This document shows, in pieces, positions 21,746-52,032 of a stretch of 56,459 nt of DNA. The stretch spans positions 1 to 56,459 of the forward strand of contig CACOYM010000014.1 in the NCBI GenBank assembly GCA_902631395.1, read 5' to 3'. Numbering within the stretch: position 1 is the first letter of the stretch; every line of letters starts with the position of its first letter. Both the position numbers and the translations under genes were made by a program. The notes beneath the pieces are model-generated. The model was given only the letters and a program-made list of their open reading frames with translations. It was not told the origin of the DNA and did not search any database. The stretch comes from Halieaceae bacterium. Its GTDB lineage: Bacteria > Pseudomonadota > Gammaproteobacteria > Pseudomonadales > Halieaceae.

Positions 21746-22300
21746 TCACCAATTGAACGGCTCATCAGGGTTCATCGGCTCACCAATGTTGATCACTTCA
21801 GTGGTGTCAGGCTGCGGCCAGATTGAAGGGTCATCCGGATCCATGGGTTCACCAATATTAATCGCCTCGGTGTTCTCGGGCTGCGGCCAAGTTGATGGGT
21901 CATCGGGGTCCATTGGTTCACCAATATTAATCAACTCTGTGTTCTCCGGTTGCGGCCAAGTTGAGGGGTCATCTGGGTCCATGGGCTCACCAATATTGCT
22001 CACTTCATTACTCCCTGGCTGGGGCCAGGTTGACGGATCATCCGGATCCATCGGCTCACCGATATTGATCACGCCGCCATCGGCGGGCTTTGCCTCAAAA
22101 GTAGCCGGCACTTGTGGAGGAGGTACGCTCTCCATTAAAGGCTCACCCTCAAGCTCTGTTTCAGTAAAGGAAGGCAGCCCATCACTGCTTGCAGGTGAGA
22201 GCGGCTCGGACGGCTCAACAACGGGCTCCCGCGAGGTCCAGATGACTACGGCAGCGACCACCGCTGTAGCTGTGAGTAGCCCTCTCATGTTACTAATCAT
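21746..22300 (-). CDS. Small anchored protein with five 23-residue acidic repeats
   Basis: 184 aa. The N terminus (MRGLLTATAVVAAVVIW after an optional MISN) is a signal anchor or signal peptide; then a Pro/Glu/Ser-rich linker to residue 76; then four full repeats of 23 residues and one of 16 built on NIGEPMDPDDPSTWPQP. The repeats are almost identical, acidic and rich in Pro and Asp. No enzymatic motif is present; a periplasmic or surface calcium- or partner-binding role is a guess. The start ATG lies three bases after the stop of the decayed patatin reading frame, with AGAGG between or overlapping, so it was probably the second gene of a patatin operon. Confidence 0.7.
   Translation of the reverse strand: MISNMRGLLTATAVVAAVVIWTSREPVVEPSEPLSPASSDGLPSFTETELEGEPLMESVPPPQVPATFEAKPADGGVINIGEPMDPDDPSTWPQPGSNEVSNIGEPMDPDDPSTWPQPENTELINIGEPMDPDDPSTWPQPENTEAINIGEPMDPDDPSIWPQPDTTEVINIGEPMNPDEPFNW
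21749..22072. repeat. 69-bp tandem repeats, 4.7 copies
   Basis: Four complete 69-base units and a final 48-base partial unit stand head to tail with no spacers, all in frame with the minus-strand gene. Units differ by a few substitutions, mostly at the Pro-Glu-Asn-Thr end of the protein repeat; the last copy (leftmost) is the most diverged. Such arrays usually change copy number by slippage or recombination. Confidence 0.9.
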
Positions 22301-31593: not shown

Positions 31594-32301
31594 TCAAACA
31601 TCCGGATACCTAAGAAAGTTTTTTAACTCGCCTGGAGGACAAGGAACCTTTGGAAAAACCCTCCAGTGCAACGCAGTGTTCGGCTTCAGGACCACATAAA
31701 CAGTCATGAGTATGCATTTTAGATACAGGGATAAAGAGCGATTGCTCACATACCATTGCTCGAGAAGACCCTTATAGGGCATGAGCACATCGTCATAAAA
31801 GGTTTCAGGGTCGCGCGATTCGCACAACATCTTCTCTTCCTCTCTAAAAAAAATTGAACCTAACCCTGATAAACCCGGACGCACCGATATGATTGCTCTT
31901 CGCAACCGCTCAGGAAACGCATTGAAGCAGCGCGGAGTTTGGGGACGAGGTCCAATGATGCTCATATGACCTATCAGCACGTTATACAACTGGGGCAATT
32001 CATTTATTTTTGTTTTCCGTAGAAACTTACCAACCCTCAACACTCTAGGATCATTCTCAACGGTGACTGTACCGGTGCCCAAATTTGGGCTGTCTTTGAG
32101 CATAGTGGCAAACTTCACCAGTTGGAAAGGCGTTTGGTCTCTCCCCACGCGAAGTTGCTGGAAAAAAACTTCATTCTCACCAGTTAGTCGTAGCACTATC
32201 GTTGTTGGGATCAAGAGCGGCAGAAACGCAACAATTGCAAAGGCCGAAAAAATAACGTCAAGAACGCGAAGCAGTGAATCTCTGAAGCTACATACGCTCA
32301 T
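31594..32301 (-). CDS. Monotopic phosphoglycosyl transferase (WcaJ/PglC type), Asp-to-Asn variant
   Basis: 235 aa from ATG 32301 (GTAGG seven bases before). A single hydrophobic re-entrant segment (about 14-36) is followed by the catalytic domain: VGRDQTPFQLVKFATML, KINELPQLYNV (98-108) and IIGPRP (115-120). The family transfers sugar 1-phosphate to undecaprenyl phosphate and begins a glycan. In characterised members the dyad is Asp-Glu (LDELPQL) with Asp as nucleophile; here it is Asn100-Glu101, confirmed in the bases as AAT GAA. The start overlaps the dehydratase gene by 14 bases. The C-terminal 60 residues (YKGLLEQWYV...) resemble the paralogue at 33539. Confidence 0.8.
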   Translation of the reverse strand: MSVCSFRDSLLRVLDVIFSAFAIVAFLPLLIPTTIVLRLTGENEVFFQQLRVGRDQTPFQLVKFATMLKDSPNLGTGTVTVENDPRVLRVGKFLRKTKINELPQLYNVLIGHMSIIGPRPQTPRCFNAFPERLRRAIISVRPGLSGLGSIFFREEEKMLCESRDPETFYDDVLMPYKGLLEQWYVSNRSLSLYLKCILMTVYVVLKPNTALHWRVFPKVPCPPGELKNFLRYPDV

Positions 32302-33478
32302 CCAAATACCTACCCGTCTCATAATGCTTAAACTCCGGGAGCAGCAATCTAAATAAACTTACCAAAGTTGCTTTGTCCCAAGATCGCGAAGCACGCAGTT
32401 TCTCTATTTCTACAAGAAACTCTGCGAGGGCTTCAGGGGCAGTCTCAACGGCGTTTTTCACGATTCCAATTGATTTAAACCGCTCTAAGTCAAGTTCTTC
32501 ATCGTCAGTGTAGAACTCCTCGGCCTCTTTCTCCCCTGTAGTATCGGAAGTAAAGAAATGTACAGGCCATCTTTTCTCTGCGATCAATGCTTTGGCACTG
32601 CGTCGTGCCTCTTCCTCCGAGCCGCATTCATAGGGCTCAAAACCGTGAAACCTAAGATATCGCGTCGCAATCTCCGGAAACGCGATAAGCTGCAGCCCTT
32701 CACGAAGTTGCGGGAAGAAAATGTCCCGACTAGCCCCAAAAATCGTCGATAAGAGACAGAGCTCACCCGATTCAGAGGGAGTCAAAAAATATCTGCGGAC
32801 GTCAGTCGGAGCAGAAAACGGTTGTTGTCTCAAAAAGCGCTGATTGAAACCATGCAGCAATGAGCCATCGGAAAAAGCCACATTCGCAAACCTTGCCGTA
32901 GAGATGTCTGTACTTCTGCTTTCATTTGTGAGGAACAACTCCATGATCCGTTTACTAGCTCCCATCATATTCACCGGATTGGCAGCTTTATCAGTTGAAA
33001 CACAGAAATATTTTCGTAGACCTGCTTCCCGCGCCAAACGTATGGTGGATAGCGTGTTGATGATATTGACCTGTATCAGGCGCATCAGGGTATAGGGGTC
33101 TTTTTCACTTCGCACATGCTTGAGTGCGGAAAGGTTACAGACGTAATCATAAGGGCCCTCGGCATTGAGAAGCATCTCAAATTCAGCTCCAGCGCAATCC
33201 AGCGCAAAAGTTCGAAAATCGCCATCGCCGTAACCCAGCGAACTACGGATTTCGCGAACGAGCTCGACAAGATTGTTCTCGCTGAGATCAACGACATGCA
33301 AAGCAGAGGGGTTTCGACTAAATATCTCACGAGTTACTGCCTGCCCGATGGTTCCTGCTCCGCCAATAACCAGAAATCGGGATTGTGAGACTGCATCCCG
33401 GAGTAGCTTCTCATGCTCACGGACATCAGACTCAAAAAGAGTAGATGACCTACCTAACAGGGAAAGAGTATCGATCAA
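32288..33478 (-). CDS. FlaA1/CapD-like nucleotide-sugar dehydratase or epimerase
   Basis: 396 aa, soluble: it lacks the four membrane helices of full-length CapD. The dinucleotide motif is GGAGTIGQA (about 39-47), with SALKHVRSEKDPYTLMRLIQ, STDKAANPVNMMG and ASKRIME, the FlaA1/PseB-type arrangement for 4,6-dehydration or 5-epimerisation of UDP-GlcNAc. A charged C-terminal extension of about 60 residues is unusual. The start is TTG with GAGGA eight bases upstream. It is flanked on both sides by phosphoglycosyl transferase genes and overlaps the downstream one by 14 bases. Confidence 0.75.
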   Translation of the reverse strand: MIDTLSLLGRSSTLFESDVREHEKLLRDAVSQSRFLVIGGAGTIGQAVTREIFSRNPSALHVVDLSENNLVELVREIRSSLGYGDGDFRTFALDCAGAEFEMLLNAEGPYDYVCNLSALKHVRSEKDPYTLMRLIQVNIINTLSTIRLAREAGLRKYFCVSTDKAANPVNMMGASKRIMELFLTNESRSTDISTARFANVAFSDGSLLHGFNQRFLRQQPFSAPTDVRRYFLTPSESGELCLLSTIFGASRDIFFPQLREGLQLIAFPEIATRYLRFHGFEPYECGSEEEARRSAKALIAEKRWPVHFFTSDTTGEKEAEEFYTDDEELDLERFKSIGIVKNAVETAPEALAEFLVEIEKLRASRSWDKATLVSLFRLLLPEFKHYETGRYLDERM

Positions 33479-33538: not shown

Positions 33539-34207
33539 CTAAATTACGCGCCGTAGTTCGGGTGGAAGCTCCGGCAGGTTGGGGTAAATTCTATACAACC
33601 ACCCATTGGTTTTCGGAATAAAAACACTTACTCCAGTAAGAAATACCATAGCAATGTAGAGCCGAATATTCATCCGCTCTGCCGCCCATATCTCGAGAGA
33701 GGATTTATAGGGGGCAATAACCTCATCATAAAAAACGCGAGGATTACTGCAAGACTGAAGGATTTTCTCTTCGTCTCTAAAAACAATCGACGCAATTCCT
33801 GTGAGCCCGGGAGCTAGAGCATAAATTCTCTCCAAATCCTGGGCTGGCACGCCACGAAGCTCTCGCGCTACATGTGGTCTGGGGCCTACAAAAGTCATAT
33901 CGCCGACTATGATATTGAATAATTGCGGTAATTCATTAATTTTGGTGGCCCGTAAAACCCTACCCACTGGTAGGACTCGCGAATCATCCGATAAAGTAAT
34001 CGTACCGCTTCCAATATTGGGGCTATCCCTCAACATGGTCGCGAATTTCAAAATCTGAAAAGGATGGCCGTACCTGCCAATCCGCTCCTGCCAGAATAAA
34101 ACTTCTCCTTCGCCAGTCATGCGGAGAACAACCGTAACGGCCACTAGCAGCGGTGAGAGAAGCAGGACAGCCACTAGTGCTAAGGCAATATCTAACAATC
34201 GAATCAT
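33539..34207 (-). CDS. Second monotopic phosphoglycosyl transferase, Asp-to-Asn variant
   Basis: 222 aa from ATG 34207 (a TTG at 34210 precedes it). Same plan as the 31594 gene: hydrophobic re-entrant helix (about 5-28), RYGHPFQILKFATML, ATKINELPQLFN (87-98) and FVGPRP. The dyad position is Asn91-Glu92 (AAT GAA in the bases), as in the paralogue. The two share enough sequence (KFATML, SPN, KINELPQL, YKS/YKG segments) to be paralogues. It could start a different glycan from its twin, or act on a different sugar. A 60-base gap follows before the dehydratase gene. Confidence 0.8.
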   Translation of the reverse strand: MIRLLDIALALVAVLLLSPLLVAVTVVLRMTGEGEVLFWQERIGRYGHPFQILKFATMLRDSPNIGSGTITLSDDSRVLPVGRVLRATKINELPQLFNIIVGDMTFVGPRPHVARELRGVPAQDLERIYALAPGLTGIASIVFRDEEKILQSCSNPRVFYDEVIAPYKSSLEIWAAERMNIRLYIAMVFLTGVSVFIPKTNGWLYRIYPNLPELPPELRRVI

Positions 34208-34262
34208 CAATATGTGCGTTGCAAAGTTGAGATGAATACGGCTGTATGGGTCACTTTTAACT

Positions 34263-35096
34263 TCAGTCTATGTTAACTTTGTCACGGGCTTGCTCCTCTA
34301 TAATCTCCCGAAGATCACGCAGCGCCGCTCCCATGTGATCAGACGACAACGACTTAGCGGCCGCGAATGCCTGCTTCAGCTCAGAGAGAGCCTCGGAGAA
34401 TTGAATTTCGTAACGCCTCCAATCAAGGCGGGGCTCACGCCTGCAAAAAGATCTATTAAGAATCACGCCACTAGACCCCAATTCAGCATGTCTTACGGCA
34501 ATTAGAGCCGGGCTGGGTTCAAACATCCCTATCTTTGCGACACCGCCAATTCCCAACGGAACACCCGCTTCTCGGCACGCTTTTGCAGCCAAGCTTACTT
34601 CCTCAGCCATCAGTGCCTGAAACACAAATGGCAAACCGAGCTGTATAGACATATCGTTCAAACCGATGTGCACGTAATCAATGGGATTATTGGAGAGTAT
34701 GGTGTCAAGGTTACGCGCGGACTCCGGTGTCTCAACAAGGAGAATGCGTTCAGCTCGCGAGCCGACTTGCTCGCAAAACAACCCAACCTCGTCAGTTTTA
34801 AAAAAGAAGGGCAACATTACAGCATCGGCGCCCCGGCCTACTGCCTCGTCTATCTGATCGGCTTCGCGGAACTCGGAAGATTCAACCCTGACTATAATCC
34901 GAGTCTGTGCCAACATTGGCCTAACGGCGCTAACGTCATCTAGATTGTGAGAGGAAATCCAAGCTCCCTCGGGTTGTCTATGTGACTTAGCCTCATTTTC
35001 AAGGTCTATCATCACGTCGGTTACACCCTGACGCTCATAAATCGCTGCCACATCAGGTTCGTTTGTGATAGCGATATAGCGCAAACTAGAACTCAT
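34263..35096 (-). CDS. HpcH/HpaI (CitE-like) aldolase family protein
   Basis: 277 aa TIM barrel of the HpcH/HpaI/citrate-lyase-beta superfamily. Landmarks: VMIDLENEAKSHR (28-40), RIIVRV (66-71), LLVETPESARNLD with metal ligand Glu122, and VHIGLNDMSIQLGL with metal ligand Asp148, then GIGGVAK. Members cleave or form C-C bonds between a ketoacid or acyl-CoA and an aldehyde using a divalent metal. The substrate cannot be read. The gene overlaps the decarboxylase by 11 bases, which points to coupled translation and a shared pathway. The last 40 residues are helical and charged. Enzymes of this fold are unusual in O-antigen clusters. Confidence 0.75.
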   Translation of the reverse strand: MSSSLRYIAITNEPDVAAIYERQGVTDVMIDLENEAKSHRQPEGAWISSHNLDDVSAVRPMLAQTRIIVRVESSEFREADQIDEAVGRGADAVMLPFFFKTDEVGLFCEQVGSRAERILLVETPESARNLDTILSNNPIDYVHIGLNDMSIQLGLPFVFQALMAEEVSLAAKACREAGVPLGIGGVAKIGMFEPSPALIAVRHAELGSSGVILNRSFCRREPRLDWRRYEIQFSEALSELKQAFAAAKSLSSDHMGAALRDLREIIEEQARDKVNID

Positions 35097-36360
35097 AGCT
35101 GTCGAAGGAAAAACCGGAGTCGATTACATCTCGAGCGAGCCTCAATCCATCCCGCTCTGACCTAACGACAACGATTTCGTCCATCCGGATAAATGGTGGC
35201 CTCATAACTAGCGAGTATGCACCGCTATTACGAAATGTTAGGAGGTCACCAACCGAGATGGGCTCCGCGGTCTGCGCAATCAAAATATCTCCTTCCACGC
35301 AGGTATAACCCACCACCTGTGTGAAGGTCTCTGAAATCTGTTGCTGTTCGCTATACGCTTCGGAGTCAGGTGCGTTGGAGTGTAGCGAGTCGGTGCTCAC
35401 TCGACTCCACGCAGGTTCGACACCCTTTGAAATACCACCCCTAGCAAAATTGCTACCGTCAGTCACCGCAATAAAACGACCGCCACCTCGCTGTTTCTTT
35501 GCATGAACACGGCAAAGATACTCCACTGAATCGGCAACAATCGCTGTTCCAGGCTCTAGAAGAAGCTTAGGTAGGTTGCAATGGTCGTAAAGCGCAATCA
35601 CCTCCGCGAAGTAACCTGCGCACCCCGAAGCATATTCCTCATAGCTTGGCGGATTCTTTGCAAACTGTCTGGCGAACGCATCCTCCATAGGCCCACAAAA
35701 GCCCCCACCTATGGAGAGATATTTAAGTGTTCTGAGATCTCTGTCATCAAGGGCCTTCAAAACGTCAACAATGCGCTTGGCTGTCTGTTCAACGACAGCA
35801 CTACTTCGATCGGCGTAATGCGCATGGATTCCAGTCAGGTTTACATGACGGCTTGCTCTTATCAAATTGATGGCGGCATCGAAATCTACTCCTGGATGTT
35901 CAATACCAAACCTGCTTAATCCGAGCACTGGATCGGATTCAAAAGCAAGCCGCAGACCAATACCAAACTGGCACTCTTGCATCTCAGCCATGCGAACCAC
36001 TCGCTCAACTTCTTCGTAGCTATCCGCATTCAGCTGACAACCCAAGGTAACAATTCGTTTTAACTCCTCATCGGTCTTCAACGGACCGTTAAAATAAATT
36101 TCTTCCGCTGAGTGCTCAATTCCCAGCGCCATGTCCATCTCGAACCCTGAAACCACCTCCGCATGTCCGCCCAACTCCTTATTGAGGCTAATCAGTGGTC
36201 TTGCATAGTTAGTCTTGTACGAGTAACCAATCTGCACGTTGGGATATACCGCTTCAAAGGCCGTCATAAAAGCTTGATGGTTACGTCTGAATACGTCCAG
36301 ATCGACAAGATACGCAGGAGTCGGTACGTCGGCCAGGGTATTAAATACGGCCTTTGTCAT
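35086..36360 (-). CDS. PLP-dependent amino-acid decarboxylase (alanine racemase/ODC fold)
   Basis: 424 aa from ATG 36360 (AAGGA nine bases before). It has the fold-III PLP pattern: YSYKTN with the Schiff-base Lys49, the substrate- and PLP-binding HAHYADRS, YLSIGGGF and LLEPGTAIVA, and CVEGD near the C terminus, matching the Cys-x-x-x-Asp segment of diaminopimelate and ornithine decarboxylases. It is therefore a decarboxylase or possibly racemase on an amino acid; substrate unknown. The start overlaps the aminotransferase stop as TGATG, and the 3' end overlaps the aldolase. Not a lysA: context and substrate-end sequence differ and it sits in an accessory operon. Confidence 0.8.
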   Translation of the reverse strand: MTKAVFNTLADVPTPAYLVDLDVFRRNHQAFMTAFEAVYPNVQIGYSYKTNYARPLISLNKELGGHAEVVSGFEMDMALGIEHSAEEIYFNGPLKTDEELKRIVTLGCQLNADSYEEVERVVRMAEMQECQFGIGLRLAFESDPVLGLSRFGIEHPGVDFDAAINLIRASRHVNLTGIHAHYADRSSAVVEQTAKRIVDVLKALDDRDLRTLKYLSIGGGFCGPMEDAFARQFAKNPPSYEEYASGCAGYFAEVIALYDHCNLPKLLLEPGTAIVADSVEYLCRVHAKKQRGGGRFIAVTDGSNFARGGISKGVEPAWSRVSTDSLHSNAPDSEAYSEQQQISETFTQVVGYTCVEGDILIAQTAEPISVGDLLTFRNSGAYSLVMRPPFIRMDEIVVVRSERDGLRLARDVIDSGFSFDSYEF

Positions 36361-37268
36361 CAAACATCATCCTTTGTACGGCCTGCCACGATGTTGGAGC
36401 TCTGCACCGCCTCTCTAAGCGCCTGACGGGCGAAGTCTGACAATGAGGCGTCAGCATGCTCACCGATTCGGCGTCCGTCTATCTCCACAACACTCACTAC
36501 CTCGGCTGTAGTACCAACAAGCAATACCTCATCGCAAATATAGAGCTCAGGCAACGTCATGGGCCTTTGCAAAACGGAGTAATTACCACAAGCAATGGCA
36601 CTGCTTCTAATATGGTCCTGGGTGATACCACGGAGCACCGGTAACTCTGGAGGACAGAAATAAATCTCTCTATCCTTGCGGCAAACCAAATTGGCTCCTG
36701 CCCCCTCCACTACATAGCTGTTGTCATCCAAAAGCAACGGCATATCTGCGCCACAGGATCGCGCTTGCAAAAAGGCATATCTGGAGTTCAAGTAGTTCGC
36801 ACCGCTTTTTACAGACATTGGAATTGCACTAAGTCCAGGGCGACGCCATGAGGAGGTCATAGCGCTTACCTGGCGTCTCTCTGACAATCGGCTTGGTGAC
36901 GAAAAGAAGCGTATCGCCAAGTTTGCCTCTACATCAGTGTTCCATGACTCGCCTGGGCTGCCTACTAACATCAGTGTCATTCGGATTACAACATCTTCTG
37001 GAGGCGCGACTTTGACAAGCGCTAGTAAATGCTCCTTTAAAGAGCGCATACCGTAGGGGTGTTGGATGCCTAAGATCTTAGCCGATTCTAATAGGCGTTG
37101 TAGGTGTAGCTCCGCAAAAGCTAACGCGTGTCCTGACATCTCTGGACGCCAGTATGCCCGCAAGCCTTCAAAGACATTAAGACCATAGGCAGCTGTTGCT
37201 GAAAAAGGGCTGATGCTTAAGTCTTCCTCGGGAATGAGTTCACCGTCCCATAACGCTAATTTTGTCAA
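36360..37268 (-). CDS. Class IV (branched-chain-like) aminotransferase
   Basis: 302 aa PLP enzyme of fold type IV. It has YGLNVFEGLRAY near the N terminus, the Schiff-base Lys154 in MSVKSGANYLNSRYA, VVEGAGANLV and LPVLRGITQDHIR, the usual order of branched-chain and D-amino-acid aminotransferases and of aminodeoxychorismate lyase. A TTG start with GAGG seven bases upstream fits. It opens a three-gene overlapping set with the decarboxylase and the aldolase, so it more likely makes or consumes a special amino acid than serves leucine/valine synthesis. 13 bases separate it from the upstream FAD/NAD-type gene. Confidence 0.78.
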   Translation of the reverse strand: MTKLALWDGELIPEEDLSISPFSATAAYGLNVFEGLRAYWRPEMSGHALAFAELHLQRLLESAKILGIQHPYGMRSLKEHLLALVKVAPPEDVVIRMTLMLVGSPGESWNTDVEANLAIRFFSSPSRLSERRQVSAMTSSWRRPGLSAIPMSVKSGANYLNSRYAFLQARSCGADMPLLLDDNSYVVEGAGANLVCRKDREIYFCPPELPVLRGITQDHIRSSAIACGNYSVLQRPMTLPELYICDEVLLVGTTAEVVSVVEIDGRRIGEHADASLSDFARQALREAVQSSNIVAGRTKDDV

Positions 37269-37281
37269 CTGATTGCCTCGC

Positions 37282-38382
37282 TTATTGATCGGTTTTGAGA
37301 AAACTTAAAAAGTGACGATAGCGATAAATGCCGTCAGCAAGGTTACCTCTTGAATTCCAATATCTCACTTGATTGAAGTTCCCACTCCGGTGACGCGTAA
37401 GGGGGTAAGACCACGCAAGTTCCTCCACCCTCTCGAACATCATTTCGATCACTGTATCGGCATATAAAATTCCAGCCGTAACCAAATAATCCGATACATC
37501 CCCTCTACATTCACGCCAGAGACGACTGGAGGGGAGTTCGATCAGGACAAACACTTTACTTCCGTCTGAACCTACAACGTCCAATAAGCACATTCTTTTC
37601 AGCGGCGCCCTTCCATTAAAGGTAATGTAGGAGAAGACTTTTCTCACACAATCTCTTTGGATCTGCACAAAGACACTGGTTCGCTCTGCGGGCTTACCTG
37701 TCATCGGTACGAGCCGTTTTCCATCATCTCGAAGCGAAACGGACGCAGTTACCTCAAGTCGATGACAGACAAAACTCAGCGGGCCACAATCCAACCATAG
37801 ATGCTCCCCCTCTCTTTCAACAGAAACCAATTCGGCATCCTCGAACTGTGCTCCAGCGGCAATAGCAGCATTCTGCAGTTTCGCCACAAAAGTCGCATAG
37901 CCGGAGACCGGAACCTGCACTTGGCCACCACCGCGTATATAAGCCTTCAGGCTAGCAAGCGCCGCCCAAGCTTTCCCTATTTTTATGTCCATCAAAGGGT
38001 CGCGCTTACCCGCCAGATTCTGGATCAATGAGATCGCCGCGGTCACCAGTAGCGAGGAGAGCGTCAAAGCTCGGTTTGCAGCTCCTTGGTAATCAAGCTG
38101 AAGCTTAACGCCAAGCGAGCGGTAGGGCTGGGGAGATTGTATTACGAAACGCTCACCGCTGTATTGCTCAAGCAATGGGTAGACGTTGGGAATGGGCTCA
38201 ATAAGATGGCAGGCGGCCTCGGCTACCATATCACTGTCCAAGCTCAGCGAACGCCATGCCCCACCTCTCTCCCCCTTCCTCGACAGGACCATTACCGAGA
38301 GGCCGTCAGCGGATAAACGTCGCGCTAGCATTAGCATCAAGGGACTTGAACCAACGATTACGTGATCAAAATGTGCAACCAT
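37282..38382 (-). CDS. FAD/NAD(P)-binding oxidoreductase-like protein
   Basis: 366 aa. It begins with a Rossmann motif variant (DHVIVGSSPLMLMLARRL, then SVMVLSRKGERGGAWRS) typical of amine-oxidase or protoporphyrinogen-oxidase-like flavoproteins, in which GGAW follows a short loop. The normal GxGxxG is altered to GSSPLM, so binding should be checked. A middle section (about 130-260) and a PLTRHRSGN segment near the end have no clear parallel. I infer a redox role in tailoring of the glycan or its amino-acid substituent. It uses ATG 38382, one codon after a GTG. Confidence 0.6.
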   Translation of the reverse strand: MVAHFDHVIVGSSPLMLMLARRLSADGLSVMVLSRKGERGGAWRSLSLDSDMVAEAACHLIEPIPNVYPLLEQYSGERFVIQSPQPYRSLGVKLQLDYQGAANRALTLSSLLVTAAISLIQNLAGKRDPLMDIKIGKAWAALASLKAYIRGGGQVQVPVSGYATFVAKLQNAAIAAGAQFEDAELVSVEREGEHLWLDCGPLSFVCHRLEVTASVSLRDDGKRLVPMTGKPAERTSVFVQIQRDCVRKVFSYITFNGRAPLKRMCLLDVVGSDGSKVFVLIELPSSRLWRECRGDVSDYLVTAGILYADTVIEMMFERVEELAWSYPLTRHRSGNFNQVRYWNSRGNLADGIYRYRHFLSFLKTDQ

Positions 38383-38400
38383 CACTCAAATGAGGCCATA

Positions 38401-39069
38401 TCACTGGCCAGCCAATCCTGGGCTCTTGAATATCTTCCACTGCTCCGCGCTGTACTGACCATTCTTTGCATAGGCCTCAACATAGCCTAACTCCACTAGA
38501 TCGTCGGCAAGAACTGGGTCAACGTAGATTAGGACAAAAGACTTATCTAGAGCCGCTGTAAAAGCCCTTCGGAAGGTCTCTCCTTGAAAGCTGTTGTAGA
38601 AATAAACTACCGACGGGGCCTCAAGGTAATTTGCGAAGTTCTCCCCCGATTCAGCGAGTACAGAGGTTTTTATCGCCTTTACCTTCGCAAGGTTTGCCTC
38701 ACACAGACCAACCAGATTGTGGTCATATTCGATACCAACAAATTCTTTAAAATCATCAGAGAAATACTTTTCACCATAGGTGATAGTTTTTCCTTTCCCA
38801 CAACCAACATCGATAAACTTTACTGGTCCGCAAGCACTGCTGAGAATCTGCAAGGCACGTGAAATTGTTTCTTTGATCACGAAGTCGAGAGAAGCCACAT
38901 AGAGCAAGCCATCTTTGAATGCTGGGTCGTTCACAGCCTGCACGCTCTTCTCGCGGCGAAAAGCAGTATTTGTCCCGTGCCGCAGGTCAAACCATACTGC
39001 GTTCCTAATGTACATGAATACAAAACGTACGCCGCGTTGACGCAGAGACCTGAGAATATGGCGAATCAT
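38401..39069 (-). CDS. SAM-dependent methyltransferase-like protein
   Basis: 222 aa. The motif I sequence KFIDVGCGKGKTITY (about 82-96) and FVGIEYDHNLVGLCEANL (about 107-124, the acidic ribose-binding position) are those of class I SAM methyltransferases. The N terminus is basic (MIRHILRSLRQRG) and may lie against the membrane. Its target is not visible: a sugar hydroxyl or lipid carrier group is most likely in this cluster. Its start overlaps the GT4 gene as ATGA. Confidence 0.7.
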   Translation of the reverse strand: MIRHILRSLRQRGVRFVFMYIRNAVWFDLRHGTNTAFRREKSVQAVNDPAFKDGLLYVASLDFVIKETISRALQILSSACGPVKFIDVGCGKGKTITYGEKYFSDDFKEFVGIEYDHNLVGLCEANLAKVKAIKTSVLAESGENFANYLEAPSVVYFYNSFQGETFRRAFTAALDKSFVLIYVDPVLADDLVELGYVEAYAKNGQYSAEQWKIFKSPGLAGQ

Positions 39070-40334
39070 GCGGTCCCTTCCAGAAAGCTAACTTTACCTC
39101 TCGCCGATTGAGGACACATCGCCTCAAGGTAAGCTACAAAGGTTTCACCAGCTTCTGCGACGCTGAAACGATCTACGAATACTTGATGCGCACGTCGTTT
39201 CGCATCAATAATCCAATCTGGCCGCTGCAAAATTTCCTCAAGGAGGTGCAATAAATTTTCTGGCTGTCCGGCCTGGTAACAAACTCCAATATCCTGCGTG
39301 TTCACGAGGTCAGCCAATTCACCGGGCAAGGAATTAATCAACACTAGCCCCGCTGCCATGTACTCAAAAGGCTTGTTTGGCAGACTTTGCAAGGCTTGCC
39401 CAGCATAAGAACAAAGTCCTGCATCGGATACCCGCAATACCGAATGCAATTCGTCTCGATTCAACCAGCCTAGGTGAACTAAGGTGGAACATTCCTTTGC
39501 TTTCTTGGCAACTTTGGGCGACTCAGAGCCGATTCCAGCCATCAGAATTTGCAGCGGTAAGTTGCGCCTATCTGCCTCTTCTGCAACGGCTAAGATCAGG
39601 TCGATATCATAGGTGGCTTCAAACTGCCCTGCAAAACAGATTAAAAAACAATCCGTTCGGATGCCATGTCGCGACAGCCACTTGGCTTCTGGCTTAGCGT
39701 TAGAAACAGGACTTGATCCTAAATAGATCACCCGATCATTTGCATTTTCCGCTTTTCCCGACAGCATTACTGCCCAATCTAAATACCGTCTGGATACAGC
39801 AATACGACCGCTTGCAGCAGCTAGATAATTACCCATCCGCTTGAAGGACGGGGCTAACAGTCTTCTAGCAAAGACCTTGGCGAAATCGGGGAAAAGATTC
39901 AAATAGACATCAGGCCACAAATCGCGGACATCCAGGACTACGGGGACGCCCCATTGTTTTCCAAGAGCCAAACTCTCCCGACACAGGCCTGAGGTTGGTA
40001 TTCCGCAGACAATGACATCGGGACGTTCTAATCGAGAGGCTCGCTGGGTAAATTTTGCCGCAAGCCGTTGGTAGAACCGAAACCGGGCAAAGCTTCTATG
40101 GTTGCGATACTCGCCAGCGTGCAGCAGTTGCAACTGATAGTCGCTGGAAATTTGCACAGTCATATCAACCTTCGCTCGGAGGCGTTTGGTCGCATGGGCA
40201 AAGGTTGGCGCAAACCTCACGACTTTATGGTTATGTGCCACAAGAGCCTGGGCAAAGTATGAATAGCGAAAAAGTCGCGGATTCTTGTCCACAACAGGCA
40301 ACAGCTCTCCGGGGTGAATTAGCCAAACCCTCAT
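39066..40334 (-). CDS. Glycosyltransferase family 4
   Basis: 422 aa, GT-B fold. The N-terminal half ends at VVLDVRDLWPDVYLNLFP, the segment seen in GT4 enzymes such as WbuB-like GlcNAc/FucNAc transferases. The C-terminal half has CFAGQFEATYDIDLILAVAEEA, LGWLNRDEL and KPFEYMAAGLVLINSLPGELADLV (the nucleotide-binding EX7E region, here with a shifted Glu). Adds a sugar to the growing undecaprenyl-linked unit in the cytoplasm. Coupled with the methyltransferase downstream (ATGA). Confidence 0.85.
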   Translation of the reverse strand: MRVWLIHPGELLPVVDKNPRLFRYSYFAQALVAHNHKVVRFAPTFAHATKRLRAKVDMTVQISSDYQLQLLHAGEYRNHRSFARFRFYQRLAAKFTQRASRLERPDVIVCGIPTSGLCRESLALGKQWGVPVVLDVRDLWPDVYLNLFPDFAKVFARRLLAPSFKRMGNYLAAASGRIAVSRRYLDWAVMLSGKAENANDRVIYLGSSPVSNAKPEAKWLSRHGIRTDCFLICFAGQFEATYDIDLILAVAEEADRRNLPLQILMAGIGSESPKVAKKAKECSTLVHLGWLNRDELHSVLRVSDAGLCSYAGQALQSLPNKPFEYMAAGLVLINSLPGELADLVNTQDIGVCYQAGQPENLLHLLEEILQRPDWIIDAKRRAHQVFVDRFSVAEAGETFVAYLEAMCPQSARGKVSFLEGTA

Positions 40335-42492: not shown

Positions 42493-43839
42493 TTAAGAGT
42501 TGACCCTAATCAATGAATTACACCCTGCCCTATTCTGAAATTTCAACTTTCGCGAACCTCTGCGCCGACACAGAAACAACAGTAGAGCTGATACGCCCAT
42601 TCCATGGGTTAGAAAGGCAGTAGGGAGATCAGAACTAATCAAGAGGGATTCACTAGGGACGATCATGACGGCCACCGCAACCCAAGTTGGCACACCTCTA
42701 TTGGCGAAGGAATCGAGTAGCCGAAAGAAGAACCCAACAATAACACCATAAATTGCAATCCCTATTGCACCGGCATGCATGTATCCCGTGGCTAAGAAAG
42801 AATTATTGGCGTGCGCGTTAGTTCCCAGATACTCACCGATCAATTTAGCGGTTCCCACTTCGTAGGGGTATTCAATTACCGTGGATAAAATCGAATTGGA
42901 CCAAAATACCGGTTCATTTTGCGAAAAAAATTCGTAGTACTCGAACGTGAGCATTGAGGGCACGAAGAAAACTCTACGGATGGTCAGGGCGCCAAGCCAA
43001 GTATCGTCGATAGCAAAAAACGCTAGCAGCGAGAACAAAACAGTCGCTGCCATGCCTGCAGCAATGATTGTTAGAGATATCGTAGTCCTGAACCAGAACC
43101 ACACAAATAATACGAGAAATGGATAAAATACGATCCCCTTGTGGGCTGTGACACTAAACCAAAACACGTGCAGCAAAAATATTATTGGCACCAAAATGTA
43201 TTTTCGTTTCCACAACGCCATTGCGAGAAGGAACGGGCCAAAAGCTTTCGTAGCCCAAATATTGAAGTAATTCATTACACCTACATTCAGAAGCGCACTA
43301 GACTGCTCGCGAAACTCGTAGACGCGAGAAAAATCTAAATTGAAGTAACGTAGGCCTCCACTTCCAATCATCCACACTGTAACCACTAAACAAGCGATTG
43401 ATGCGATAGTTACTGCAAGCTGCAACCCACCGTTGACGGTGTAAAAGATAAAGGGCCGGCCGTGACGTACAACCAAGACGCTAACCGCCCCTAGCAACAC
43501 CAAATACAGATGATCTCGATTCTCATTTGCCAAGCCGTAAAAAATAAGGAGTGGCAATAAAAATCCAAATAACATGTAGCTCACCAGGTAGTCTGAAGGT
43601 CTATTTAGACGAGCTGGGAACACAACCAGTAGTAAGAGATAAAGCACCCAACTTTCCAAGTACTTAGCGCTACTAAAATCAATACCAAATCCATAACTGG
43701 CAAAGACCGGATGCACGAAAAAAACGTACCCCAGTTCTAACGAGAGGCGCAAAACAAACGCCCACAGAATGTAGGGTCCCTTGCCGTCAAAAATAAAAGC
43801 ACGAAGCCGTGCCAGGTCTCGACTGATACTAACCCTCAC
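42493..43839 (-). CDS. wzy: O-antigen polymerase-like membrane protein (Wzy)
   Basis: 448 aa with about 11 membrane helices and a larger periplasmic loop (about 300-345, TFEYYEFFSQNEPVFWSNS), the topology expected of Wzy. It lies in the middle of the run, as polymerases often do. Wzy sequences are poorly conserved, so the call rests on topology and context. The GTG start overlaps the deacetylase-like stop (GTGA). LGTNAHANNSFLATGYMHAG (from about residue 341) resembles conserved Wzy or ligase loops. Confidence 0.7.
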   Translation of the reverse strand: MRVSISRDLARLRAFIFDGKGPYILWAFVLRLSLELGYVFFVHPVFASYGFGIDFSSAKYLESWVLYLLLLVVFPARLNRPSDYLVSYMLFGFLLPLLIFYGLANENRDHLYLVLLGAVSVLVVRHGRPFIFYTVNGGLQLAVTIASIACLVVTVWMIGSGGLRYFNLDFSRVYEFREQSSALLNVGVMNYFNIWATKAFGPFLLAMALWKRKYILVPIIFLLHVFWFSVTAHKGIVFYPFLVLFVWFWFRTTISLTIIAAGMAATVLFSLLAFFAIDDTWLGALTIRRVFFVPSMLTFEYYEFFSQNEPVFWSNSILSTVIEYPYEVGTAKLIGEYLGTNAHANNSFLATGYMHAGAIGIAIYGVIVGFFFRLLDSFANRGVPTWVAVAVMIVPSESLLISSDLPTAFLTHGMGVSALLLFLCRRRGSRKLKFQNRAGCNSLIRVNS

Positions 43840-45167
43840 TGATCAAGCACTGCTCGATAAAGGCTCTCTCTTCCACGGAGCTCTGAGTTATGCCAGAGCA
43901 GCGTGAAACATCCACCAACCTTCCGGCACTTTTCTTTCAGGCCTGTAAGGAGCTCTAACGCATCCGCATGATTGCAGCCCATATATTGAGAGCCAAATAC
44001 ACTCACTTCCATAGCCACGAGGGGTCTGACACGTATATTCAGTGATCGCCCTTTTACAGGGTCAAATCCCGGATATTCAAAACAGGTGCCACAACGAAAC
44101 CCCGGGCGGTCAGGATAAGTCAGAGTATTGTCGTAGGTGAGCCCCGCACTATCCAAGTAACGTAAAGTAGCTGGATGAGACCACCTTAGATAGTGCATGC
44201 GACTTCCAGTAGCATGTAATTTTATCCCCTCCCGCTCACAGGTTAAGTAAAGCCTCTCTGCTTCCAACTTTAGCTGGCTCTTACTATCAAAGCTGTTGTA
44301 GCTGGGGTGCAAACCTATCTCATGGCCTCTGTCATAGATTTCTCGCAGCAAATGCCGTATCGCGGGATGCTCAATCACATAGTCAGCATCCAAGTAGCTG
44401 CTTTTCTCGCAAATGAAGTAAAACGAACTCCGTAAACCCCGCTCTTCGGATTGCGACATGAGCCAATCGAAAGTGTTCAACGGATCAAGAGAACTCAAGC
44501 GAGAGCCAATTCTGTACCTAACCCATGGACCTGTAGCGATGCTGCTAAGACGCCCCTTCAACACATCTCGTACGACGCTATAGGCGAATTTTGAAGCGCT
44601 GGAAAAACCATAACGTGAAGGCCTATCCACATCGTGTGACAACTGAAAAGAGAAGACGTTTTGCTTACGCACAAAGGCGGGCCAAAGCTTCACCGCTACT
44701 TGCCCAACGACATCAAACCACTCATCAACCACCGGTCGGTCAAGGTAGCCATGCCTAAATGCATGCGAGTGTCTCGCCATGAACCGGCCGTGCTGGTCAA
44801 CACCGATGCTATCTATTTCTTCTAGCCTGCTCAGTACCCAGTAAAACATATCCAAAATGCCGTAACGGACAAGAAAGCCGTCGGTGTCACGCTGAATAAG
44901 TCGATCGGGTACAAAAGGCAAGCCCGGAGCAGGAAGCGGACCCCCTATGATGCTCCGCCACCCTTCCCGCTCAGCATCCCAGCTGGAGCAGGGTACTTCA
45001 GAATTTGTGACGTCAAAGATACCAGGGGAATTGCTCTTGAACCGTATCCTATTCTCGGATCCAGCCAATCGCAGATCCACTACTCCAGACGCTCTGGACA
45101 ATTGCCAGATACCGCCCAATCGCTCGGTGAGGAGAGCCTCAAGCCAACGATCAACTGCATCAAGCAT
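43836..45167 (-). CDS. Polysaccharide-deacetylase-like protein
   Basis: 443 aa from ATG 45167, which overlaps the ATP-grasp stop by 8 bases. In the middle, FQLSHDVDRPSRYG gives the HDVD pair typical of this deacetylase family (the NodB TFDDG position), and near residue 289 DRGHEIGLHPSYNSF gives the metal His segment. The last part has TLLWHNSEL. The family removes N-acetyl groups from sugars; here the target could be the diacetamido uronic acid. No signal peptide is seen, so action on the lipid-linked or nucleotide sugar in the cytoplasm is more likely than on the finished chain. Confidence 0.7.
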   Translation of the reverse strand: MLDAVDRWLEALLTERLGGIWQLSRASGVVDLRLAGSENRIRFKSNSPGIFDVTNSEVPCSSWDAEREGWRSIIGGPLPAPGLPFVPDRLIQRDTDGFLVRYGILDMFYWVLSRLEEIDSIGVDQHGRFMARHSHAFRHGYLDRPVVDEWFDVVGQVAVKLWPAFVRKQNVFSFQLSHDVDRPSRYGFSSASKFAYSVVRDVLKGRLSSIATGPWVRYRIGSRLSSLDPLNTFDWLMSQSEERGLRSSFYFICEKSSYLDADYVIEHPAIRHLLREIYDRGHEIGLHPSYNSFDSKSQLKLEAERLYLTCEREGIKLHATGSRMHYLRWSHPATLRYLDSAGLTYDNTLTYPDRPGFRCGTCFEYPGFDPVKGRSLNIRVRPLVAMEVSVFGSQYMGCNHADALELLTGLKEKCRKVGGCFTLLWHNSELRGRESLYRAVLDQ

Positions 45168-46410
45168 CAATGCCCACGACACCCAGTGAGAAATGGTTTG
45201 CAATATCAGCAATCTGGTTTATGTCATCTGTTTCTACAATAATTTTTGTCTTAACAGCCCTGTAGTGATTGCGCCTAACAACGAAGGGGATGTTGCTCGT
45301 TTTCATAAACCTCCGCCACTGCTTACTTTCCAAGTCGTCAGAAAAATATTTCACCAACACCTTCCGGTTTTTATTTGGGGTCAGCTTCAAATAGTTCTTA
45401 ACCATCGACTGATAGTAAACAGAAGAAAAGTCGTTACCGGTTGCATCCGAAATAATCGCCTCGAACCCACCTCCCATCCGATTTGCTAAATCTAAAACTT
45501 TGATATTCTGATCTTTGTCAACTCTCATCTCACAATGAAAAGCGCCATGGTTGATACCGCAGGCAGATAAAACCGAAGCGGTGTTGAGGGAAATAATATG
45601 ATGGAGGTCTTCGGGGATAGGGGCGTTGAAGAGATACCAATTGTAATTGAACTCGGGCAGATAACCCTCGTAATTTTCTTGAACGATACACAGTATCGCC
45701 ACCTCGCCGTTGTGAATAACCCCTTCAACGTCGAATTGGGCTCCTTCAACGTATTCTTCTAATAGGAATTTGTTATGGAAAGTAGTCGTGCGCCTTTGCG
45801 CAAGAGCTTGATCACCATACTTGTGTAAGTCAGCATCGTTGGAAAGTAAGTAAACGCCCTCTGATGCAGTCCCGATCGCTGGCTTGAGCACACAGGGGTA
45901 GCGCAAAGGCAGTATGTCATCTCCGATAGCAATCTCCTTATTCTGAAGTACGCTTAGTCCTGCGTTGTTCAAGGTGTGCCTAAGCGTAATCTTATCCAAG
46001 CTGCATTGTCGCGCGAGGACTGAATTAGCTTTACCGTTGCCTAGAAGATCATTGAGACGGTTGTAAGCCGGAACCATAAACGACCCGCACTGAATCAGGA
46101 CGTGGGTCAGCCGGTGCTCCACGCAATATCCATATATTTTTTGAATATTTTCCTCACCATAATCCTCAACATGAAGTAGTCCCTCCGGCTGAGTCCAACC
46201 ACCCTTATAAAATAGTGTCCTATAGGGGAAAGCGGGTGTACAACAGATGTGGAACCCCACTCGCTCCCGCTTGAGAGCAGACAGTAAATGCCCAGAGCCA
46301 ATGTAATCGGTGAGCACCAGTACCTGAGCATCCCTCGCTCGCGTCAACATCGAGGCGCCCACTAAACCCATTGAGATAACGTCAGCTAGTTTACGTAACG
46401 CGGATAACAT
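45160..46410 (-). CDS. ATP-grasp ligase
   Basis: 416 aa from ATG 46410 with GGGAG eight bases upstream (frame open to a TTG at 46446). The ATP-grasp pattern is visible: YPCVLKPAIGTASEGVYLL, FLLEEYVEGAQFDVEGVI and EMRVDKDQNIKVLDLANRMGGG, with metal-binding Glu and Asn near the last motif. Family members join a carboxylate to an amine through an acyl phosphate. In this cluster the carboxylate could be a uronic acid and the amine an amino acid, giving an amide-linked substituent; that is inference. Overlaps the deacetylase-like gene. Confidence 0.75.
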   Translation of the reverse strand: MLSALRKLADVISMGLVGASMLTRARDAQVLVLTDYIGSGHLLSALKRERVGFHICCTPAFPYRTLFYKGGWTQPEGLLHVEDYGEENIQKIYGYCVEHRLTHVLIQCGSFMVPAYNRLNDLLGNGKANSVLARQCSLDKITLRHTLNNAGLSVLQNKEIAIGDDILPLRYPCVLKPAIGTASEGVYLLSNDADLHKYGDQALAQRRTTTFHNKFLLEEYVEGAQFDVEGVIHNGEVAILCIVQENYEGYLPEFNYNWYLFNAPIPEDLHHIISLNTASVLSACGINHGAFHCEMRVDKDQNIKVLDLANRMGGGFEAIISDATGNDFSSVYYQSMVKNYLKLTPNKNRKVLVKYFSDDLESKQWRRFMKTSNIPFVVRRNHYRAVKTKIIVETDDINQIADIANHFSLGVVGIDA

Positions 46411-46504: not shown

Positions 46505-47800
46505 TTATGCCAATCGGCGTTTATGCTCATCAAAATGTACGTAGAAAAGTAGCAGGTGTCCCGCTAGGGAGGCGAGCGATGACGCGAAAACGGCATAAGT
46601 TACATCAAGCCTGAGCTCACTAGACCCGATAAAAGCGATTAACACCATCCCTATCCTTAACGAATCGGCAAGCAACTGCGATGCCTGACGCTCGAGAACC
46701 ACCAAATGGTTTGTGGGTGAAAAAACAAGAGTGCCAACTACCATAGGCGTCATCGCGAACAAGATATATCCGGCTCCAGCCCAATCCTCCTCCCCGAAAA
46801 TAGGACCTATCAAAGTGGGTGCAAAAGCACATCCAATGGTTACAGGAATTGAAGCAACAGCTAATTTCCTCGTCGTCAATAAGAAATGGTCATGGAGCTG
46901 TCGGTACTCGGAAGTCTTTGCAAGAACAGCGGCGTGGGCCCAATAAGCTTGGCTGAGGGCCGTAGTCATTAGCGCAACCGGACCCAGTGCAACGGTATAC
47001 ATAAGTGAATACCAGCCAGCCTCTCTGGCTGAGTAAAAATAGGAGACTAGAACAAGTGGCAGGGACAGGCTCAATGCATTTAACAAAGAGACAGCGACTG
47101 ACCAATACGCCTGCTTCCAAAATCGTCTTAGTGCCAACCGAACCCTGGCGGGGAACCGACGCGGAGCACCAAAATCTTGCCCCTTAATGACGCCGGTCAA
47201 AGTTAGCGCAGCGCCCCACACAGATGCAACGTTAGCACCTACCAATCCAATGGCTCCTAGACCAGCAACGCCGCCCACGATGGCAGAAGCAACTCTCACA
47301 GCACTTTGTAACATCGAGCTTCGCCCCACTGGTAGCAGCTCGTTTTCCCGAACGCACCAACCCTTAAACAACGCCAGAACGCCTGCTCCCAACACAGCCA
47401 AGGGTAAAAGTTGGTAGACCTCTCTAAGCGAATGCGCAACTTTTGGATCAGTAGTCATCAGTGAAACCACCATAGAGTCCGCACCAGTCTGGAGCAGCAA
47501 GACGATCACCAAATCAAAAACAACCAAGGATGCGAGCCCTAAGAAAACAAGTGCTGTGCCAGTGGACTTATTTGGAGCGTTAGGGACACACCAGTCAAAT
47601 CTGCTGGTGGCAACCGCTGACAAAACAGACAACGTGGCTAAAAAAGCCGCCAACACACCAAAATCTTTGGGGTTATAGAGACGGGATAGGACAGGAAGGC
47701 TGGCGAAAGTGAGAATCTGCGCAAACACATTAGCGCGAAAGATGCTGAAAAAATTGCGGCTAAACCTCGAGGCTGATAACCGCTTAAGTGCCCACTTCAT
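46505..47800 (-). CDS. wzx: O-antigen flippase-like membrane protein (Wzx)
   Basis: 431 aa with about 12 membrane helices in the MATE-like Wzx pattern. RANVFAQILTFASLPVLSRLYNPKDFGVLAAF near the N terminus is the typical opening of lipopolysaccharide flippases of this type. It flips the undecaprenyl-linked repeat unit across the inner membrane. It stands 94 bases upstream of the ATP-grasp gene and 51 bases downstream of wbpE. Confidence 0.82.
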   Translation of the reverse strand: MKWALKRLSASRFSRNFFSIFRANVFAQILTFASLPVLSRLYNPKDFGVLAAFLATLSVLSAVATSRFDWCVPNAPNKSTGTALVFLGLASLVVFDLVIVLLLQTGADSMVVSLMTTDPKVAHSLREVYQLLPLAVLGAGVLALFKGWCVRENELLPVGRSSMLQSAVRVASAIVGGVAGLGAIGLVGANVASVWGAALTLTGVIKGQDFGAPRRFPARVRLALRRFWKQAYWSVAVSLLNALSLSLPLVLVSYFYSAREAGWYSLMYTVALGPVALMTTALSQAYWAHAAVLAKTSEYRQLHDHFLLTTRKLAVASIPVTIGCAFAPTLIGPIFGEEDWAGAGYILFAMTPMVVGTLVFSPTNHLVVLERQASQLLADSLRIGMVLIAFIGSSELRLDVTYAVFASSLASLAGHLLLFYVHFDEHKRRLA

Positions 47801-47851: not shown

Positions 47852-48972
47852 TCATGACGCAACCTGATAGCAGGCATCAACCAAAGCTTCGATGATTCGC
47901 TCCTGAGCGTCCATCTTCAGATAGGGGTGCATAGGTAAGCTCAGGGCAGTAACGCAGGCATTCTCGCTTTGAGGAACCACAACCTGCTCATCGGCTACTG
48001 AATTTTGGCGATTCAGAGGTATTGGATAATAGATATTGCTTGGTATGCCCCGCTGCAGGAGGGATGCTTGTATTGCATCTCTATTTGGCAATCTGAGGGT
48101 ATATTGTGCCCAAGCACTCTCGCTCCAGGTATCAATGAACGGTGGCCTTATGTGCTCGATCCCAGACACACCTCTCTGCTTTTCTCTCAACAACCTTGTA
48201 TATGTGGACGCTACTTCACGGCGGGCCAAGAGTTCAGCATCAAAAATTTTCATCTTCTCCAGCAAAACTGCGGCCTGAATCGTATCCAAGCGGCTATTGA
48301 TCCCCACTAGATCGTGTCTGTAACGGTTCAGCTGACCATGACGAGCGATCTGGCGCATAGAGCTCGCAAGTGTTTCATCATCTGTAAATATTGCTCCACC
48401 GTCTCCGTAACAACCTAGAGGCTTTGCAGGAAAAAAACTGGTGGTTGCAATCGTGCTGACATTACACGATTTCGTACCTTTGTAGGTGGCACCGAAGCTC
48501 TGCGCGGCGTCCTCTATAACGGGTATTCCATATCGAGCTGCCGTCTCGTTAATAGCAGTCATGTCAGCGCACTGCCCAAAGAGACTAACCGGCACGATCG
48601 CCCTCGTTCGGGGAGTTATTACCGCCTCGACCAAGTCAGCGTCAAGATTGAATGTATCCGGTCTGATATCGACATATACTGGCCGGGCTCCGCATACAAC
48701 CGCCATTTCGGCGGCGGCTATGTAGCTAAAAGCTGGCGTGATGATTTCATCGCCCGCGCCGACTCCCAGTGCCATATATGCGATCTGAAGGGCGTCAGTG
48801 CCATTCGCACATGTTATACAAAACTTCGCCCCGGTATATTGTGCTAGCCGCTCCTCCAACTCATATACCTCAGGACCCAAGATATATTTGCCGTGCGAAA
48901 GAACTCTAGCTATAGCCTCCTCTATCTGCGGTCTCAGCCGCTCCAGCTGCAGAGTCAGATCAATAAACTGGA

Positions 48973-48976
<4 letters not shown>
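47852..48976 (-). CDS. wbpE: DegT/DnrJ/EryC1 aminotransferase WbpE-like
   Basis: 374 aa PLP aminotransferase of the sugar-aminotransferase family. It has [27 protein letters not shown], the Schiff-base Lys in [15 protein letters not shown], and [12 protein letters not shown]. With wbpA, wbpB and wbpD it would place the 3-amino group on UDP-2-acetamido-3-oxo-glucuronate. Start ATG overlaps wbpD as ATGA. Normal length and no damage. Confidence 0.9.
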
Positions 48977-51855
<2,879 letters not shown>

Positions 51856-52032
51856 CAACTACCTTGCTTTCGAGCACATTTACCATTTGCGATAGCGGCA
51901 TGCTCAGCTTGATCTATCCATAATCCCTGGCAAGCTCTTACCGTTAGACAAAAATAATTTAAGTACAGACGAAACAATGAGGACAAGACTATATCATCTA
52001 GGCATGTCCGAGCGTGGTAGCTTTACTGTTGC

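Follow-up and report, generated by a model that had tools for sequence, protein, structure and literature searches.

A class IV aminotransferase, a type III decarboxylase and an aldolase-family protein in a Halieaceae glycan operon are a divergent copy of a widespread gene cassette

For the Wbp/Vim pathway, it has been proposed that VimE takes off an acetyl group, exposing an amine, and that VimA adds serine or glycine (in the consulted part of PMC7468200). Prevotella intermedia has a different, alanyl-deoxyhexose linker whose biosynthesis is given as unknown in the consulted part of PMC11969387, and a sugar transferase that carries an additional aminotransferase domain appears in the consulted part of PMC6133551. 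Here we analyse a 56,459-nucleotide stretch of DNA from a Halieaceae bacterium (contig CACOYM010000014.1; 'the window' is this whole stretch), in which genes for an aminotransferase (AT4), a decarboxylase (DC) and an aldolase-family protein (ALD) overlap within a glycan operon. This trio is a divergent copy of a widespread cassette that usually includes a sugar transferase (PGT) and often a glycosyltransferase, and it probably builds an amine-bearing part of the bacterial polysaccharide coat. An earlier note, made from the sequence alone, knew of no described pathway with these three enzymes; in agreement with it, we found no such pathway, and no description of such a cassette or its product, in open-licence PubMed Central papers. 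The trio and the adjoining sugar transferase are as follows.

36360..37268, minus strand: AT4, class IV aminotransferase resembling branched-chain aminotransferases, 302 residues; PF01063 at 118.2 bits (cut-off 28.5)
35086..36363, minus strand: DC, type III decarboxylase dependent on pyridoxal 5'-phosphate (PLP); PF02784 at 79.8 bits (cut-off 23.4) and PF00278 at 31.6 bits (cut-off 23)
34263..35096, minus strand: ALD, HpcH/HpaI-family protein, probable pyruvate-type aldolase, 277 residues; PF03328 at 34.6 bits (gathering score 25)
33539..34210, minus strand: PGT1, sugar transferase adjoining the trio; PF02397 at 149.5 bits; motif TKINELPQ, N-E at the dyad position

Open reading frames and Pfam matches bear out the three families named in the earlier note, together with its overlaps of 1 base between AT4 and DC and 11 bases between DC and ALD. 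DC is 425 residues long from a TTG codon and 424 from the next codon, the ATG at 36360, which is the likely start and gives the 1-base overlap; from the TTG the overlap is 4 bases. The residues that the note had singled out, Lys49 of DC (Lys50 in the TTG numbering used below) and Glu122 and Asp148 of ALD, are invariant in 38 aligned DCs and 47 aligned ALDs, respectively. Samples for alignments and models were hand-chosen for spread from the reading frames that passed a length filter (37 of 71 DCs, 38 of 53 AT4s and 41 of 57 ALDs).

Our scan for related loci was seeded with a three-sequence DC alignment only, covered one genome per species and kept the best 80 of 271 relatives; partner genes were sought by tblastn on DC's own strand, up to 6.5 kb away. 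ALD is present in 67 of these 80 loci (labelled L below), AT4 in 64 and PGT in 66, with ALD and AT4 together in 64 and all three partners in 60. ALD and AT4 each lie within 2.5 kb of DC in 63 loci, and under a stricter 100-bit threshold 63 loci keep both, only L048, whose AT4 is cut by a contig end, dropping out. Among the 16 loci without the full pair, L075, L089 and L090 have ALD and DC near a contig end, and the other 13 have neither ALD nor AT4, several with DC beside an ATP-grasp gene. By the submitters' titles, many of them for metagenome bins, the 64 trio loci span nine phyla: 35 are from Bacillota, 14 from Bacteroidota, 8 from Pseudomonadota, one each from Acidobacteriota, Mycoplasmatota, Fibrobacterota, Thermodesulfobacteriota, Actinomycetota and Synergistota, and one is unassigned.

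The commonest gene order, ALD-DC-PGT-AT4, recurs in Bacillota and Bacteroidota, with other orders in Pseudomonadota and elsewhere, and some members are fused: ALD to DC in L053 and L095, and PGT to AT4 in L120, which is cut by a contig end. A family 2 glycosyltransferase (GT2) like that following AT4 accompanies ALD, AT4 and PGT in 43 of the 80 loci and a match resembling the window's family 4 glycosyltransferase (GT4b) does so in 14, two loci having both; matches for PGT, GT2 and GT4b were counted from 60 bits upwards against a handful of representatives, so that they may cover further members of these large families. The GT2 of L113 scores 288.4 bits with the TuaG model, below its cut-off of 400, and no PGT was found within 6.5 kb in the Actinomycetota (L124) and Thermodesulfobacteriota (L119) loci. 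The window itself has ALD, DC, AT4 and PGT within 6.5 kb on one strand. Because ALD and AT4 accompany DC in 64 of 80 loci, and because of the fusions, we take the trio to be part of this cassette. The earlier note had proposed a neighbourhood search for all three genes, with rare conservation as grounds for giving up the idea of a unit; the unit is real and kept in those 64 loci, but three genes do not complete it, as 60 of the 64 also have a sugar transferase and often a glycosyltransferase too.

A chance grouping of an unrelated branched-chain transaminase, a lysine-pathway decarboxylase and a catabolic aldolase could draw on the AT4 of L049, which passes the IlvE cut-offs, but is contradicted by the 64 of 80 co-occurrences, the fusions and separate housekeeping genes, and we regard it as highly improbable; chance neighbours and housekeeping enzymes were thus rejected as explanations. 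The window's genome (60 contigs, 88.76% complete) encodes its own IlvE on contig C13 (437.9 bits) and its own LysA on contig C8 (517 bits), and the window's copies stay below the corresponding cut-offs, AT4 at 177.2-177.7 bits with the ilvE_I model TIGR01122 (cut-off 245.55) and DC at 140.4-142.2 bits with the lysA model TIGR01048 (cut-off 297.9), so the trio is not the housekeeping set. Nor is the trio general in the genus, since the DC search of the other 56 same-genus genomes, many of them incomplete, gave no match stronger than E = 1.7e-13; in the window's genome the same search gave E = 5.3e-12 for LysA and 7.9e-290 for the window copy. At E ≤ 1e-6, ALD turned up in 8 of 293 genomes from the order and in 7 of 398 from the phylum (both counts include that of the window), yet it stands beside DC in 67 of the 80 DC-seeded loci, so their adjacency is beyond chance. 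In viral contigs, five stretches matched a pattern, and none was confirmed. Plasmid records gave 135 DC matches, every one below 60% identity; among the 30 listed, the annotation is lysA in 10 and type III PLP-dependent enzyme in 6. ALD lies on 2 of 72,556 plasmid records, both from Rhodobacterales and sharing one locus.

The trio lies within a minus-strand gene run from 51858 to about 31594, which also includes glycosyltransferases and the other members given below; Wzx-, Wzy- and PGT-type names are at the family level.

47852..51858, minus strand: WbpE-, WbpD-, WbpB- and WbpA-like genes; Pfam and NCBIfam matches
46505..47800, minus strand: Wzx-type flippase; PF13440 at 46.1 bits
45160..46446, minus strand: ATP-grasp ligase, like L-amino acid ligases; PF13535 at 73.8 bits, 3vot_A at E = 9e-15
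43836..45212, minus strand: VimE-like sugar deacetylase; NF053580 at 141.7 bits (below its cut-off of 440), PF23019 at 83.8 bits
42493..43839, minus strand: multi-span hydrophobic membrane protein without a Pfam match, by inference a probable Wzy-type polymerase
39066..40334, minus strand: GT4b, glycosyltransferase family 4; PF00534 at 43 bits
38401..39069, minus strand: methyltransferase-like protein without a Pfam match of its own, 39% identical to an L042 protein
37282..38385, minus strand: FAD-like oxidoreductase without a Pfam match of its own, 28% identical to an L042 protein
32288..33478, minus strand: WbpM-like NAD-dependent sugar-nucleotide dehydratase; PF02719 at 125.1 bits
31594..32322, minus strand: PGT2, second sugar transferase, N-E; PF02397 at 164 bits

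The note's placing of the trio in a glycan operon is borne out by this Wzx/Wzy-type operon with its Wbp-like genes, which encode, side by side, a DegT aminotransferase, a hexapeptide transferase, a Gfo/Idh oxidoreductase and a nucleotide-sugar dehydrogenase; these matches are to general family models, and a Wbp-type pathway here is putative. The FAD-like and methyltransferase-like genes lie directly upstream of AT4 and are named from counterparts elsewhere, the former from L042 and L055 proteins that match FAD/NAD-binding families weakly and the latter from an L042 protein that matches Methyltransf_25 at 27.9 bits.

Three Rhodobacteraceae loci, L055, L068 and L086 (the same place as L042), share with the window the order GT4b, methyltransferase-like, FAD-like, AT4, DC, ALD; their PGT lies between AT4 and DC, and that of the window after ALD. 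Loci L047, L048 and L087 have copies of the window's WbpM-like gene, at 63-65% identity, as well as sugar transferases of the N-E type. As a side observation, mono-PGTs have a D-E catalytic dyad (in the consulted part of PMC10653937), and both window sugar transferases (33539-34210 and 31594-32322) read N-E at this place, as do the printed motifs of L047, L048 and L087.

Scored against cassette models built without the window copy (from 37 DCs and 41 ALDs), the window's DC (316.4 bits) and ALD (233.3 bits) are clear members. Both are divergent, departing from positions shared by at least 90% of the others at 25 of 97 sites in DC and 18 of 66 in ALD, and in DC a longer loop takes the place of the usual one after residue 304. 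In a DC tree of 51 of the 80 loci, the placement of the window sequences is unreliable because of very long branches and was not used; a second tree, also with long branches and with a wrong reading frame as one intended outgroup, was not relied on either. Such divergence, together with the added FAD-like and methyltransferase-like genes, suggests a modified final product. The long branches, the changed positions (46 of 91 in AT4 as well) and the longer DC loop would also suit a decaying or specificity-changed remnant without a working trio, but all three frames are open and overlapping and retain K50, E270, C355 and D359 of DC, K154 of AT4 and E122 and D148 of ALD, which makes a remnant very unlikely.

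Concerning what the trio makes, we infer substrates and the order of steps from the enzyme families, and with somewhat less than even confidence we favour a reading in which the three enzymes form the core of a cassette for a polysaccharide precursor and yield a primary amine by aldol addition, transamination and decarboxylation, on a substrate that is more likely sugar-bound. The product of ALD would be a 4-hydroxy-2-oxo acid, made from a pyruvate-type enolate and an aldehyde or a ketone; AT4 would turn its 2-oxo group into an amine; DC would then take off the carboxylate, so that a primary amine remains on a short hydroxy-alkyl arm; and PGT, a phosphoglycosyl transferase, would load the first sugar on the lipid carrier. 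The trio would more likely act at or near the start of a lipid-linked glycan than on a free metabolite.

The three enzymes would fit these steps. By fold, the predicted DC model (mean predicted local distance difference test score, pLDDT, 78.4; below 50 at residues 307-344) is nearest to N-citrylornithine decarboxylase FslC and then to the L-glutamyl-carrier-protein decarboxylase BtrK, and FslC also comes first for the DC family by sequence profile; both act on bulky or carrier-bound amino acids, which we count in favour of this reading. LysA gives roles to the Glu right after its active-site Cys and to the Arg of EPGR. DC lacks this signature, the cassette consensus being C-I-E and mostly EPG[ST], and the window's version C-V-E and EPGT. 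In ALD (model pLDDT 92.9), R70 is invariant in the 47 aligned sequences alongside E122 and D148, and the latter two align with the Glu and Asp of an HpcH/HpaI structure, which we take to be the metal-binding residues of these aldolases. Lys154 and Glu188 are invariant in 39 aligned AT4s.

Several results weigh against this reading. The second-nearest structures of the DC family by sequence are diaminopimelate decarboxylases, ahead of BtrK, and the window's DC scores higher with lysA (142.2 bits) than with the FslC model (87.3 bits), both under the cut-offs. The ALD model matches pyruvate kinase barrels about as well as HpcH/HpaI aldolases (TM-scores 0.55-0.65), and ALD aligns with HpcH/HpaI structures by sequence in its C-terminal half only. 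The window's AT4, besides its changes at half or so of the well-conserved positions, scores about equally with the cassette AT4 model (181.5 bits) and the IlvE model (177.7 bits); the single control protein in this scoring, the genome's own IlvE, reaches 257.5 bits with the cassette model and so outscores it, which is why AT4's membership of the cassette rests on gene order, not sequence. The AT4 of L049, the one cassette copy scanned, passes two IlvE cut-offs (288.3 bits against 245.55 and 310.7 against 279), so it could be an ordinary branched-chain transaminase in specificity. Among neighbouring genes, hexapeptide acyltransferases (5 of 138 reading frames) and the window's ligase and deacetylase would fit a free metabolite, and homologues of ALD are also found next to AsnB-like genes where DC and AT4 are lacking.

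The reverse direction, in which DC makes an amine that AT4, acting as an amine transaminase, turns into an aldehyde, with ALD either adding pyruvate to it or cleaving an aldol product, has in its favour that class IV aminotransferases include amine transaminases, several of which are among AT4's Protein Data Bank matches. We consider it quite unlikely, as the best sequence matches of AT4, the L049 copy included, are branched-chain amino acid transaminases.

The choice between a sugar-bound and a free substrate turns on the neighbouring genes, counted in 16 of 22 hand-picked loci over 138 of 183 listed reading frames (plus strand, at least 140 residues, within 6 kb). Sugar transferases (17), GT4 (15), Polysacc_synt_2 sugar dehydratases (13) and GT2 (11) are the most frequent families, and DegT matches 5. 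Amide-forming ligases (ATP-grasp, AMP-binding and asparagine synthase) are absent from the 25 commonest of the 76 families in these 16 loci, each of the 25 having at least three members, so rare ligases may be present. We favour the sugar-bound substrate because no such ligase is common there, because of the dehydratases and DegT proteins, and because PGT and AT4 are fused once; dehydratases are common in polysaccharide loci anyway. A separate side group would need a ligase for its attachment, and the window has one, though such ligases are not common beside the cassette in the 16 sampled loci.

That ligase is central to a free-metabolite route, in which the trio makes a small unbound product, be it an amino alcohol, an amine or a hydroxy amino acid (pyruvate and a small aldehyde could, for instance, be joined, aminated and then decarboxylated), and the ATP-grasp ligase couples this product to the amine that the VimE-like deacetylase uncovers on a sugar, or else to a uronate carboxyl. 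The ligase, the deacetylase and the Wbp-like genes all lie in the window's operon, VimE-like genes are also near the cassette in L087 and L119, and the proposal for the Wbp/Vim pathway is that VimE uncovers the amine to which an amino acid is next attached (PMC7468200, as consulted in part). The lack of ligases among the 25 commonest neighbour families of the 16 sampled loci speaks against the route, as does the chemistry, because an amine with no carboxyl is unable to serve as acyl donor, although it might be linked to a uronate; this route is possible but on the doubtful side.

Within the favoured sugar-bound reading, a more specific and unlikely version is a C-branched amino sugar formed on a sugar nucleotide, with ALD adding pyruvate to the keto sugar of the WbpM-like dehydratase, AT4 and DC turning the adduct into a 2-aminoethyl branch, and PGT loading the product on the lipid carrier. 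If true, it would represent an unrecognised class of branched amine-bearing sugar across bacterial phyla.

Relatives of ALD and DC occur in other settings too. An AsnB-like gene lies within a few kb of ALD, with no DC or AT4 found, in 7 of 11 non-window ALD loci (L019, L035-L038, L041 and L043; annotated in L019 and elsewhere recognised by eye from its start); L042 has the cassette, and L039, L040 and L044 have neither, L036 and L039 being short contigs. ALD may therefore provide a first step that two or more pathways have in common. The ALD homologues of L040 and L044 are more distant (27% identical) and adjoin a gene that by eye is NAD-epimerase-like, a possible third context. In two genomes of the order (L017 and L018), distant DC relatives lie between an ATP-grasp-like gene (by eye) and a 740-residue membrane-like protein, and in L056, L060, L071, L094, L097, L114 and L125, DC relatives without ALD or AT4 are paired with an ATP-grasp gene of one cluster; these pairs occur in Cyanobacteriota and Bacillota, and the L097 ATP-grasp copy matches a carbamoyl-phosphate-synthase-like model.

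The glycan region (18895-55061) is bounded by pdxA (17840-18895) and a ksgA-like gene (55061-55834), both on the plus strand and downstream of lptD and surA. The two are on one contig in 18 of 41 genus genomes searched, separated by 34-42 kb in three (G000, the window's genome, G028 and G034) and by 0.75-4.6 kb in 15, an apparent insertion hotspot. At 21746-22300, a minus-strand reading frame contains a unit of about 23 residues repeated in tandem (NIGEPMDPDDPSTWPQP..., counted by eye).

By record titles the cassette recurs in nine phyla, including in Lachnospiraceae and Prevotella. Identifying its product would account for a portion of many polysaccharide loci that has yet to be read, and would provide a further means of putting amines, which can serve as chemical handles, on glycans.

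Compared with described systems, DC is related to the XrtA/PEP-CTERM-associated PLP decarboxylase (TIGR03099, 79.7 bits; cut-off 478.45), a model named for its association with exosortase loci; the window's genome, at 88.76% completeness, has no match to exosortase PF09721, and a sortase-linked anchor sugar was rejected for that reason. A rhombosortase match of 49.1 bits is under the cut-off and reflects a general rhomboid signal, since the same search was positive in all 14 control genomes; the GlyGly-CTERM search matched in no genome searched and is uninformative. DC has the fold of FslC and BtrK, which belong to siderophore and antibiotic pathways, but is 21% identical to them in structural alignments and its 87.3 bits are far from the FslC family cut-off (NF041039, 500 bits). 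AT4 is of the same class IV family as IlvE, the window copy below and the L049 copy above the IlvE cut-off. ALD shares its Pfam family, barrel fold and aligned Glu and Asp with HpcH/HpaI pyruvate aldolases but forms its own subfamily with an invariant DxE...K..RQ segment. The Wbp/Vim pathway of Porphyromonas gingivalis and Tannerella forsythia makes an amino-acid-bearing diamino-uronic linking sugar, and the window has WbpA-, WbpB-, WbpD- and WbpE-like genes, matched by general family models, and a VimE-like gene that scores under the VimE cut-off; no FemAB/VimA-type match is among the families listed for 20 operon proteins, some of which have no match, and the presence of a VimA model in the libraries is unconfirmed. 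The published pathway ends in a sugar carrying an amino acid and does not include the trio.

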